DNA from: an uncultured Burkholderiales bacterium
Lineage (GTDB): Bacteria > Pseudomonadota > Gammaproteobacteria > Burkholderiales > Burkholderiaceae_C
Direction of reading: 5' to 3'
Length of the DNA: 46,455 nt
Assembly: GCA_903844775.1 (NCBI GenBank)
Contig: CAIMUZ010000089.1
Location: 1-46,455, forward strand
The stretch's first letter is position 1. Every line of letters starts with the position of its first letter. The position numbers were made by a program, and so were the translations under genes. Positions 16,484 through 46,242 of the stretch are shown here, piece after piece. The notes beneath the pieces are model-generated. The model was not told the origin of the DNA. It made no database searches and saw only the letters and a program-made list of their open reading frames with translations.

Positions 16484-19400
16484 ATGAACGCTCCACTGCC
16501 TGAACATTTGCGACAAGCGCTTGCCAACGTCACCTTGGACGACAAGTACAGCCTCCAAACGGGGCACGCTTTTATGAGCGGGGTTCAAGCCCTTGTGCGC
16601 TTGCCCATGCTGCAACAAGAGCGCGATGCCGCGGTTGGGAAAAAAACGGGCGCGCTCATCAGCGGGTATCGTGGGTCCCCTTTGGGCGGTTATGACCAAG
16701 CGCTTTGGAAGGCCAAGCCCTATTTAGAAAAACACAATATTGTTTTTCAGCCGGGTGTCAACGAAGAATTGGCCGCAACGGCATTGTGGGGAACCCAGCA
16801 ACTGGGTTTTGCGCCACCTGGCAGTCAAAAGTTTGATGGCGTTTTTGGGATTTGGTATGGCAAGGGCCCCGGGGTTGATCGATGCTCTGATGTTTTTAAA
16901 CATGCCAACATGGCCGGCACTACGCCTTGGGGCGGCGTCTTGGCCGTTGCGGGCGACGACCATGTGGCCAAGAGTTCCACCGCCGCGCACCAAAGTGATC
17001 ACATCTTCAAGGCTTGTGGCTTGCCCGTGTTCTTTCCCGCTTCTGTTCAAGAGGTTTTGGATTTGGGTGTTCATGCCATTGCATTAAGTCGGTTTGCGGG
17101 CGTTTGGTCGGGCATGAAAACAATTCAAGAAATTGTGGAGTCGAGTGCCGCGGCAGACATCCAAGCCGATCGCGTCAAAATTGTTTTGCCTGACTTCGAA
17201 ATGCCACCAGGTGGGGTTCACATTCGTTGGCCAGACGGGGCACTTGAACAAGAGGCGCGCCTGTTTGACTTCAAGTGGTATGCCGCTTTGGCCTACATCC
17301 GTGCCAATCGTTTAAACCACAACGTCATTGAGGGCCCTCATGATCGGTACGGCATTATGGCCAGTGGCAAGGCCTACAACGACACGCGACAAGCGCTGAT
17401 TGATTTGGGCTTAGACACAGCCGCGTGCCATCGATTGGGTATTCGCGTTCACAAGGTTTCTGTGGTCTGGCCATTAGAGGCTCATTCAACACGTGAGTTT
17501 GCCCAGGGCTTGAAAGAGATTTTGGTCGTTGAAGAAAAACGCCAAGTGATCGAGTATCAATTAAAAGAAGAGCTCTACAACTGGCCCGATGCGATGCGTC
17601 CTCGCATCGTGGGTAAATTTGATGGGTTGGACGGCGACGAGTCGGGTGGTGAGTGGTCTGTTCCAAACCCGATGGCCCATCGCTTGTTGCGTGCTAACGC
17701 CGATTTGACGCCCACCTTGATTGCCAAAGCGCTAGCCAAGCGTCTCCAGAAATTGGATTTACCGGCCGATATTTTGACCAAAATAGAGGCGCAGCTTCAA
17801 ATCATTGATGCCAAAGAGCGTGCTCAAAACAGTTTGGTTTTAAATCCTGCGATAGACCGCACACCTTGGTTTTGCTCTGGTTGTCCACACAACACCAGCA
17901 CCAAAGTGCCCGAAGGATCACGGGCCATGGCCGGCATTGGTTGCCACTTTATGAGCTTGTGGATGGACCGAAGTACCACCGGGTTTACACAAATGGGCGG
18001 CGAAGGAACCCCATGGATTGGTCAACAGCACTTCAGTCATGAGAAGCATGTGTTTGCCAACATTGGCGACGGCACCTATTTTCACAGCGGTATTTTGGCC
18101 ATCCGACAAAGCATCGCTGCGGGCGTCAATATCACTTACAAAATTTTGTACAACGATGCGGTCGCCATGACAGGCGGTCAACGCATTGGTGAGCGCGCTG
18201 AAGGGCATACGGTTGTACAAATTGCACAAAGCATGCGTGCTGAAGGTGCCATGGTCATCAAGGTCGTCACCGATGAGCCCGAAAAATACGATGGTGTGGC
18301 GTTGGCAGAGGGCGTTTTGGTTCATCACAGAGATGAGCTCGATGCGGTTCAAAGAACACTTCGCGAAGTCAAAGGCTGCACGGTCATTATTTATGACCAA
18401 ACCTGTGCAACCGAAAAGCGCAGGCGTCGTAAGCGCGGGACCATGGTCGATCCTGCCGTGCGCGTGATGATCAATGAGCTGGTTTGTGAGGGTTGTGGTG
18501 ACTGCGGCGTTCAATCTAATTGTTTGTCGATCGAGCCGTTAGAGACTGATTTTGGTCGCAAGCGCACGATCAATCAAAATAGTTGTAACAAAGATACCAG
18601 TTGCCTGAAGGGCTTTTGTCCCAGCTTTATTTCCATCGAAGGCGGCCAATTAAAGAAAAAAACAAAGGGCACAAAATTTGATGTGTCAGCCTTGCCAGAA
18701 TTGCCAATGCCAACGCTTCCTAATTTGAAAGATTCTGTTTATGGCATTGTGGTTGCGGGTGTGGGCGGCACCGGAGTGATTACCATCGGTCAACTGTTGG
18801 GGATGGCGGCGCACCTTGATGGCTTAGGTGTTGTGACTCAAGATTCAGCAGGCTTGGCGCAAAAAGGTGGGGCGACTTGGAGCCATGTTTTGTTGGCGCA
18901 GCAGCAAGACCAAATTCAAACGACCCGTGTCAGCATGGCGGCCGCTGATTTGGTATTGGGTTGCGACCCCATCGTGAGTGCGGGCAAAGAAACGCTCTCT
19001 CGAATGCTGGAGGGTCGAACTCGCGTTGCTTTAAATTCTCACGGGACACCGACGGCAGCGTTCGTTAAAAATACGCTCTGGCAAAACCCAGCTGACGAAT
19101 GTGCCTCTGAAATTGGTTCTACCGTTGGTTTGGCCAGCCTCGCCGCTTTTGATGCAGAAAAATTCTCTTCTCATTTAATGGGTGACACGATCTTCATCAA
19201 TCCCATGCTTTTGGGTTATGCATGGCAAAAAGCTTGGATTCCACTAAGCCTGGAAGCATTGCGTCGTGCGATCGAACTCAATGAAGTGGCTGTTTCAAAT
19301 AATTTAGCCGCGTTTGAGTGGGGCCGCCATGCTGCTCACCATTTACATCTACTTGATGCATTAGTTTCACCTGGTCACATTGTTGAATTTAAGAAACGTC

Positions 19401-20032
19401 CTCAATTAGACGACTTGATTCAACAACGCGTTGGCTTTTTAACAGCCTATCAAAACACGGCTTATGCCAACGTCTATGAAAACTTTGTCCAAACTGTAAA
19501 AGCAAAAGAGGACGTGTTTGGACAAACTTTGTTGACAGAAACAGTTGCCCGTCAACTTTTTAAACTGATGGCTTACAAAGACGAATACGAAGTTGCACGC
19601 TTGCACACCGATAAACAGTTCCTAGAACGCGTTAAAACCCAGTTTGAAGGCGATTTCAAGGTTTTCTATCACCTAGCCCCTCCCTTGCTTGCAAAACGCA
19701 ATGAGAAAGGCCAGCTTATCAAACAAAAAATGAGCCCTCACATGCTTCTGGTGTTTAAAGGGTTGGCCAAACTAAAGTTCCTAAGAGGCACTTTCTTTGA
19801 CATTTTCGGTCGAAGCGAAGAACGACAAACAGAAAGAGCACTCATTCAGGAATACATGGATGCCATTAAAGAAATACTGTTGTCCCTGACGCAAGAAAAC
19901 CATGCCTTGGCTGTGAACATGGCAAATGTCCCTGAACAGATCAAAGGTTTTGGTCATGTGAAAGAAAGACACATTGCGGCAGCCATGATTCAGTGGCAAA
20001 ACCACATGGATCTTTTTAGAAAATCAACTTAA
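16484..20032 (+). CDS. Indolepyruvate ferredoxin oxidoreductase (fused alpha/gamma-type subunits)
   Basis: 1182 aa; TPP/pyrimidine-binding region, Fe-S cysteine cluster 'CEGCGDCGVQSNCLS', C-terminal 'VAGVGGTGVITIGQLLGMAAH'. Confidence 0.95.
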   Translation: MNAPLPEHLRQALANVTLDDKYSLQTGHAFMSGVQALVRLPMLQQERDAAVGKKTGALISGYRGSPLGGYDQALWKAKPYLEKHNIVFQPGVNEELAATALWGTQQLGFAPPGSQKFDGVFGIWYGKGPGVDRCSDVFKHANMAGTTPWGGVLAVAGDDHVAKSSTAAHQSDHIFKACGLPVFFPASVQEVLDLGVHAIALSRFAGVWSGMKTIQEIVESSAAADIQADRVKIVLPDFEMPPGGVHIRWPDGALEQEARLFDFKWYAALAYIRANRLNHNVIEGPHDRYGIMASGKAYNDTRQALIDLGLDTAACHRLGIRVHKVSVVWPLEAHSTREFAQGLKEILVVEEKRQVIEYQLKEELYNWPDAMRPRIVGKFDGLDGDESGGEWSVPNPMAHRLLRANADLTPTLIAKALAKRLQKLDLPADILTKIEAQLQIIDAKERAQNSLVLNPAIDRTPWFCSGCPHNTSTKVPEGSRAMAGIGCHFMSLWMDRSTTGFTQMGGEGTPWIGQQHFSHEKHVFANIGDGTYFHSGILAIRQSIAAGVNITYKILYNDAVAMTGGQRIGERAEGHTVVQIAQSMRAEGAMVIKVVTDEPEKYDGVALAEGVLVHHRDELDAVQRTLREVKGCTVIIYDQTCATEKRRRRKRGTMVDPAVRVMINELVCEGCGDCGVQSNCLSIEPLETDFGRKRTINQNSCNKDTSCLKGFCPSFISIEGGQLKKKTKGTKFDVSALPELPMPTLPNLKDSVYGIVVAGVGGTGVITIGQLLGMAAHLDGLGVVTQDSAGLAQKGGATWSHVLLAQQQDQIQTTRVSMAAADLVLGCDPIVSAGKETLSRMLEGRTRVALNSHGTPTAAFVKNTLWQNPADECASEIGSTVGLASLAAFDAEKFSSHLMGDTIFINPMLLGYAWQKAWIPLSLEALRRAIELNEVAVSNNLAAFEWGRHAAHHLHLLDALVSPGHIVEFKKRPQLDDLIQQRVGFLTAYQNTAYANVYENFVQTVKAKEDVFGQTLLTETVARQLFKLMAYKDEYEVARLHTDKQFLERVKTQFEGDFKVFYHLAPPLLAKRNEKGQLIKQKMSPHMLLVFKGLAKLKFLRGTFFDIFGRSEERQTERALIQEYMDAIKEILLSLTQENHALAVNMANVPEQIKGFGHVKERHIAAAMIQWQNHMDLFRKST

Positions 20033-20039
20033 TTTAAAG

Positions 20040-20350
20040 AGGGACTTATTCTTTGTATTCTTCTTTTATATAGATTAATACATAGTAGTAGTAGATAAGG
20101 GGAGGCTTGTTCTGTGGACAAGTCTCTTTTTTCTTTATAGATCAACCAAGTAAATAACTTTGAAGGGTGTGTACCACACTGCTTCTTTGGTGTCATGGTT
20201 CTATGAACAACTTCTTTAATTTTTAAATTCTGTGGATAACTCATTGCTTATCCAAAATCTTTCCACAATGTTATTCATTGACAGATTGAAGGAAGTAAGC
20301 ACTTTTTTAGGCGTGTGCGCTCATTTTTTTAATGACAATTGATATTGCAA
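20040..20350. other. oriC: Candidate chromosomal replication origin (oriC)
   Basis: Intergenic AT-rich region with AT-rich stretch (20043-20082), TAGTAGTAGTAG (20083-20094), GC-rich GGGGAGGC (20099-20106), DnaA-box-like TGTGGACAA (20113-20121), perfect DnaA box TGTGGATAA (20231-20239), TTATCCAAA (20248-20256) and CTTTCCACA (20259-20267). parABS lies a few kb away. Confidence 0.8.
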
Positions 20351-20356
20351 TGCATG

Positions 20357-21238
20357 TCACGGCGTAAAAAGACCGGCTCTGAAATCATCGACTGCCTGCA
20401 TCAACTCTTCACGCGTATTCATCACAAAAGGACCATATTGAGCGATAGGTTCATTCAGAGGTTTCCCAGAAATTAAAAGAACCTGACTGCCAGCAGAGGC
20501 GCTAATCTCAACACCATGACCTTCATTTTGAAGGATGGCCATGCGGTGTAATTCAACAGATGTCTCTTGCTGCTCACTCACAACCGCGACCTTGCCCCGA
20601 TAAACAAAAATGAAGGCGTTGTGTTCAGGATTCAATGCTTGTTGAAAACTTGTCGTCTTTGTAAAGTGAATGTCTAAATAAAGTGGCTGAGTCGGAAATA
20701 AATGGGCGGGTCGGCAAACGGCACCTTGAACGCCTTGTACTTCGCCAGAAATGATGCGAATTTTGACGCCCTTTGTTAAATTTAATTCGGGAACCTTGTT
20801 GCTCTGAATGTCCTGATAGCCAGGCGGGCAAAGTTTCTGGTGCGATGGCAAGTTAAGCCACAACTGAAAACCCTCCATCACGCCCTCTTCTTGTTCGGGC
20901 ATTTCGCTGTGGACAACACCACGGCCCGCGGTCATCCATTGCACGCCACCGTTTTGCAACAAGCCCTCATGGCCTGCGCTATCACGATGACGCATCCGCC
21001 CGGCAATCATGTAGGTGACGGTTTCAAAACCACGATGTGGGTGGTCTGGAAAACCGCCACCGTAATCATTGGGATCATTGCTTCCAAAATTGTCCAGCAT
21101 CAGAAAGGGGTCAAGTCGCCGTTGGTGAGCCTGGGTTAAAACCCGCGTGAGCTTGACGCCATCGCCATCTCGTGTGGCTTGGCCAATGACTTGTTGTTCG
21201 ACAGATCGGCCGTGAAAGGGTGTTGAGGGAGCGGTCAT
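20357..21238 (-). CDS. Pirin family protein
   Basis: 293 aa; 'RVLTQAHQRRLDPFLMLDNFGSNDPNDYGGGFPDHPHRGFETVTYMIAGRMRHRDSAGHEGLLQNGGVQWMTAGRGVVHSEMP'. Confidence 0.96.
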   Translation of the reverse strand: MTAPSTPFHGRSVEQQVIGQATRDGDGVKLTRVLTQAHQRRLDPFLMLDNFGSNDPNDYGGGFPDHPHRGFETVTYMIAGRMRHRDSAGHEGLLQNGGVQWMTAGRGVVHSEMPEQEEGVMEGFQLWLNLPSHQKLCPPGYQDIQSNKVPELNLTKGVKIRIISGEVQGVQGAVCRPAHLFPTQPLYLDIHFTKTTSFQQALNPEHNAFIFVYRGKVAVVSEQQETSVELHRMAILQNEGHGVEISASAGSQVLLISGKPLNEPIAQYGPFVMNTREELMQAVDDFRAGLFTP

Positions 21239-46089: not shown

Positions 46090-46123
46090 ACAAACTGAAT
46101 TAGCCAGTTAAAATACGCACATT

Positions 46124-46223
46124 CCCAAGGAGCGTTGCAGCCCGCCAGCCATTTTGGCCGCGGGTCAGGCTTGGGGCTCAATGCGGGGCATGACCCCCTT
46201 CCTATTGCAAACCACGCTCACCT
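46124..46223 (+). ncRNA. S-adenosylhomocysteine (SAH) riboswitch
   Basis: CCCAAGGAGCGTTGCA...TCAGGCTTGGGG...TGCAAACCACGCTCACC: GAGCGT/TGCA pair with TGCA/ACGCTC (P1), and CCCAAG pairs with CTTGGG, matching my recollection of the SAH riboswitch architecture. Confidence 0.88.
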
Positions 46224-46242
46224 GCGATCCAAGGGGTGAGTT

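Follow-up and report, generated by a model that had tools for sequence, protein, structure and literature searches.

The DNA analysed here (the window, 46,455 nucleotides) is one contig, C89, of a MAG (G000) of 2.52 Mb in 235 contigs and about 78% completeness. The source organism is a Limnohabitans MAG; among named relatives, its oxidoreductase is closest to that of Limnohabitans. The window contains a non-coding gap in which an indolepyruvate oxidoreductase-type gene and a pirin gene converge (Table 1). This gap has a GC content of 32.7% over 324 bp, compared with 52.3% for the 46-kb window, and it includes the lowest-GC 150 bp of the whole window, in agreement with the AT-rich non-coding gap of the preliminary description. 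In a stability computation with stretches of 30, 50 and 80 bp, the window had its least stable stretch of each length in the gap (50-bp minimum of -50.8 kcal/mol, against a window mean of -73.0 with sd 4.4 kcal/mol).

Table 1. Coordinates in the window of the gap, its predicted elements and the neighbouring genes
Feature	Position	Strand	Remarks
Indolepyruvate oxidoreductase-type gene	16484-20032	+	POR, TPP and DUF6537 domains; 3′ end at gap
Predicted oriC-bearing gap	20033-20356	.	Between convergent oxidoreductase (+) and pirin (-) genes; lowest GC and least stable of window
AT-rich tract, predicted DNA unwinding element	~20047-20082	.	Least stable 50 bp of window starts at 20047
CTACTACTACTA, four predicted DnaA-trio units	20083-20094	-	3′-GAT-5′ on + strand
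Spacer GAACAAGCCTCCCCTTAT	20095-20112	-	18 nt (14 nt, TTA, one extra base)
Terminator-like hairpin	20097-20131	+	Covers box 1; would end oxidoreductase transcript
DnaA box 1, TTGTCCACA	20113-20121	-	Adjoins trios; invariant in 12 relatives
AAGTTGTTCAT motif, possible weak DnaA site	20202-20212	-	Constant position between box 2 and box 1
DnaA box 2, perfect TTATCCACA	20231-20239	-	118 bp from box 1
Weak DnaA box TTATCCAAA	20248-20256	+	Inverted; flanks box 2
Weak DnaA box 3, CTTTCCACA	20259-20267	+	Inverted; 28 bp from box 2
Pirin gene	20357-21238	-	3′ end at gap
mnmG	24325
rsmG	26346		Named from translation
parA	27744		Named from translation
parB	29077		Named from translation

Read on the minus strand, TTATCCACA is followed after 118 bp by TTGTCCACA, the 18-nt spacer, CTACTACTACTA and the AT-rich tract. 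The boxes, GC spacer, trio and AT tract named in the preliminary description are all present, as are the perfect TTATCCACA and two weaker boxes that it had placed at a distance (20231, 20248 and 20259). As expected of an oriC, an intergenic cluster of DnaA boxes, two strong and two weak, lies beside an easily melted AT-rich element. Dinucleotide shuffling of the gap, repeated 3000 times, never attained the observed box count or the (CTA)4 run; the window contains a single box-spacer-trio motif, that of the gap. A search of the window for an IHF site gave only matches with 1-2 mismatches.

Two other roles were considered and rejected: that of a promoter region, because the flanking genes converge, and that of an RNA element, as an Rfam search of the gap gave no match. 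Near the window end, an SAH riboswitch (Rfam RF01057) is found at 46121-46226 on the + strand.

The neighbouring genes mnmG, rsmG, parA and parB, together with parS, are present in the window as first described. mnmG lies 4 kb from the gap, on a side that varies among congeners. Three parS sites (25803, 25992 and 26953), of which one is perfect and the others have 1 and 2 mismatches, are located within mnmG and rsmG, 5.7-6.8 kb from the predicted origin. The 46-kb window contains no dnaA, as had been noted; in the MAG, dnaA is a fragment on a separate contig (C219), beside rpmH and rnpA. In six Limnohabitans congeners, dnaA is 82-183 kb from the origin module, and the predicted origin is hence not adjacent to dnaA. 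The only dnaN found in the MAG is on contig C175 (L176, 2779 bp), which has a box-trio motif of its own beside that gene. A second origin there was rejected: the contig is probably a contaminant, because it is nearer to another genus (G212, 87.6% identity) than to the Limnohabitans genome G006 (only about 80-82%).

Conservation and GC skew among Limnohabitans

Conservation of the gap follows its predicted elements. Across 12 close relatives, no change is seen in box 1, 11 of the 12 trio columns and 8 of the 9 box 2 columns are invariant, and identity reaches 98% over the AT tract at 20052-20082; in contrast, identity is 58% at 20240-20247 and 50% at 20283-20300. The layout of the module, searched with a pattern related to the family-wide one given below, is present in 68 of 81 congeners (control, about 6). 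A second Limnohabitans lineage retains the three-box layout with distances of 119 and 28 bp, the latter, between boxes 3 and 2, being equal to that in the window. In this lineage the module is located about 2.1 kb past the oxidoreductase gene and upstream of minCDE (named from translations), and the mnmG-par block is found on the opposite side. Inversions around an origin would be expected to rearrange genes about a fixed point in this way. At one locus of this lineage (L087, 13630-15800), the predicted origin is directly upstream of the division-site genes minCDE, the two sharing a single gap. Other Comamonadaceae loci with the same oxidoreductase have no such box cluster nearby.

The hairpin over box 1 shows a paired A-T to G-C change in two congeners, G006 and G003, which would suit a gap that, between its two convergent genes, serves only as a conserved terminator or a small-RNA region. 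That reading would leave the trio, the AT tract, boxes 2 and 3, the 118/119-bp spacing and the skew described below all unexplained, the gap has no counterpart in Rfam, and at the second-lineage module upstream of minCDE no terminator-like hairpin was seen by eye; we therefore consider it barely credible. Judging from the overlap of hairpin and box 1 in this lineage, one sequence may serve both ends, terminator and origin.

The preliminary description had placed the origin in this gap, uncoupled from dnaA, and had proposed GC skew, a scan for DnaA boxes and conservation in related genomes as checks. Within the 46-kb window alone, the skew minimum is at 16.5 kb (support 8-17 kb), 3.6 kb from the gap, which lies outside the support; this offset is tentatively attributed to the gene block left of the gap, which is transcribed towards the origin. 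As the MAG is fragmented, chromosomal skew was followed in congeners. G006 is a single-contig congener of 2.95 Mb, in which skew was sampled in 40 stretches of 20 kb. It is negative in all sampled stretches from 60 to 340 kb and positive in all from 340 kb to 1.76 Mb, and the opposite switch occurs at 1.76-1.87 Mb, a range that includes the antipode of the gap homologue at 1.818 Mb. A two-segment model places the switch at 335 kb with support from 332 to 343 kb. At 343.4 kb, 8 kb from the optimum, the homologue of the gap falls at the edge of the support (delta lnL -2.9). In G033, from the second lineage, the box cluster at 377.5-377.7 kb falls inside the skew support of 374-381 kb. The chromosomal skew minimum is thus at or beside the homologous element in both congeners.

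These data bear on two further explanations. In the first, the origin would be another gap within about 10 kb, near 16.4 kb or upstream of mnmG, and the present gap an accessory DnaA site. The offsets of the skew optimum in the window and in G006 are in its favour, as is a single perfect box upstream of mnmG in G006 (349281). However, in 400 contiguous kb of G006, which include dnaA, the gap homologue is the sole site with at least three boxes in 400 bp, holds the sole box-trio motif and has the lowest-GC 150 bp, and the G033 skew matches the cluster to about 1 kb. An origin in a nearby gap is therefore very unlikely. In the second, the origin would reside beside dnaA, its position in many bacteria, and the gap would be a DnaA-titration or reactivation site similar to datA or DARS. 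This would accord with the dnaA-dnaN location of the module in other family members, and with a lone perfect box upstream of dnaA in G006 (261512). However, skew excludes dnaA as the switch both in G006 (dnaA at 261 kb, delta lnL -41) and in G033 (dnaA at 229 kb, 148 kb from the cluster, -16), and the dnaA region of G006 has neither a box cluster nor a trio. An origin at dnaA was rejected on this skew, and we see hardly any likelihood in such an arrangement.

Taken with the computed elements, spacing and stability, the conservation and congener skew support the original placement; neither of the outcomes named beforehand as refuting it, a skew minimum at dnaA or a lack of conservation in relatives, was observed. 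We regard the gap as almost certainly the single chromosomal oriC of the source Limnohabitans.

Putative origin modules across the family

Family genomes were searched with the pattern TCCACA-N109-116-TCCACA-N8-26-TACTA, the reversed pattern serving as control. The pattern matches 190 of 301 genomes and the reversed control about 9 of 301. The short motif TCCACA-N-CTACTACTA alone was discarded as a marker, being unspecific: its reversed control also matches many genomes. Spacing was analysed in the 48 distinct modules that have an upstream box at a distance of 112-124 bp: boxes 2 and 1 are 119 bp apart in 33 of them, 118 bp in 14 and 117 bp in one. The first YTA triplet follows the box after exactly 14 nt in 45 of the 48, and 22 of those 45 carry an extra base before the remaining trios. 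Among the matches listed, the AAGTTGTTCAT motif occurs at the same position after box 2 in most. Going beyond the preliminary description, the 118/119-bp distance between boxes 2 and 1 is, as judged from these modules, a family-wide constant.

The position of the module relative to dnaA varies. It is 0.2-0.3 kb from the dnaA end in 12 sampled genomes, being between dnaA and dnaN in some genera, and 8-181 kb from dnaA in 8 other genomes outside Limnohabitans. In four genomes with displaced modules, from four other genera (G061, G097, G220 and G258), a module lies within the skew support and dnaA is excluded; in G097, another module is found 1 kb beyond the support set. A module alone is no proof of an active origin, because in G194 and G140, where it is located at dnaA, the skew points 20-118 kb elsewhere.

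Two to three origin-like modules 0.4-29 kb apart are found in G061, G097, G220, G065, G128, G215, G233, G246, G282 and G339. Such close modules may be parts of bipartite origins, or duplicates at an intermediate stage of relocation.

One reading of these patterns is that Burkholderiaceae origins consist of one rigid module (TTATCCACA, 118/119 bp, TTRTCCACA, 14 nt, YTA, often plus one base, then CTA repeats) that has moved as a whole, and repeatedly, between the dnaA-dnaN gap and sites at a distance of 8-180 kb; skew would follow the module and not dnaA, and the one-base trio slip would be tolerated or functional. We consider the case for this reading evenly balanced.

Predicted mechanism and known origins

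A mechanism can be proposed by analogy with the basal unwinding system (BUS) in incC of Bacillus subtilis, in which a DnaA box, a spacer and 3′-GAT-5′ trios are likewise followed by unwinding (PMC6669920, PMC8287927). DnaA predicted to bind box 1 would guide polymerisation onto the 3′-GAT-5′ trios of one strand, and the resulting filament would open the adjoining AT-rich tract. Box 2, box 3 and the weak sites, at least 118 bp away, could hold a second DnaA cluster, whose looping back in a constant helical phase would raise local DnaA. The constant distance of the distal box, about 11.3 turns, would point to a single preferred loop size. By this analogy, DnaA is predicted to bind and form a loop at the gap, where the DNA would unwind and the helicase be loaded. 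A distal box is also found in B. subtilis, where it is active at several positions with helical phasing, and is thought to act via a loop (PMC6669920, PMC8287927); in the gap, by contrast, the distal box is fixed at 118/119 bp.

The order of box, spacer, trio and AT tract that was initially likened to a BUS is borne out. A BUS calls for at least three 3′-GAT-5′ trios opposite the TTATCCACA strand; the gap carries four, read as CTA on the strand of the box. The spacing departs slightly from the published rule, in which trios are at most 16 bp from the box, with a peak at 10-13: the array begins at 18 nt, with a lone TTA at 14 nt. A distance of more than 16 bp is allowed with a second degenerate box between (PMC8287927). 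The gap further differs from the B. subtilis BUS in the one-base slip after the first TTA and in its location away from dnaA.

Escherichia coli oriC is located between mnmG (gidA) and mioC, away from dnaA, with a box oriented towards the unwinding element. The gap shares with it proximity to mnmG, separation from dnaA and a box facing the unwinding element; it differs in its box array, and in that its mnmG is 4 kb off and variable in side. The location of E. coli oriC is also given for Yersinia (PMC10225481). For CHR1 of Cupriavidus metallidurans CH34, the published account puts dnaA about 90 kb from the skew switch, which adjoins a short stretch that has three perfect DnaA boxes (PMC2864759). 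Both there and at the gap a skew switch distant from dnaA, and of the same order, lies beside boxes, a likeness of arrangement; trios and a fixed module do not seem to be described for CHR1 (PMC2864759). Ori-Finder and DoriC predictions use skew, boxes and trios (PMC10225481, PMC6323995), the same kinds of evidence as the present analysis. Literature searches found no paper on a Limnohabitans origin, although DoriC may list complete Limnohabitans genomes, and none on a two-box 118/119-bp module. Origins distant from dnaA are already known from E. coli and C. metallidurans, and the part that may be new is the rigid, relocating module.

The present analysis locates the replication origin in an abundant freshwater genus; rotation or annotation of its chromosomes at dnaA would set the origin 80-180 kb off. 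More widely, one module at varied distances from dnaA offers a natural series for the box spacing and trio register that are needed, and bears on whether the distance between origin and dnaA matters for the control of initiation.
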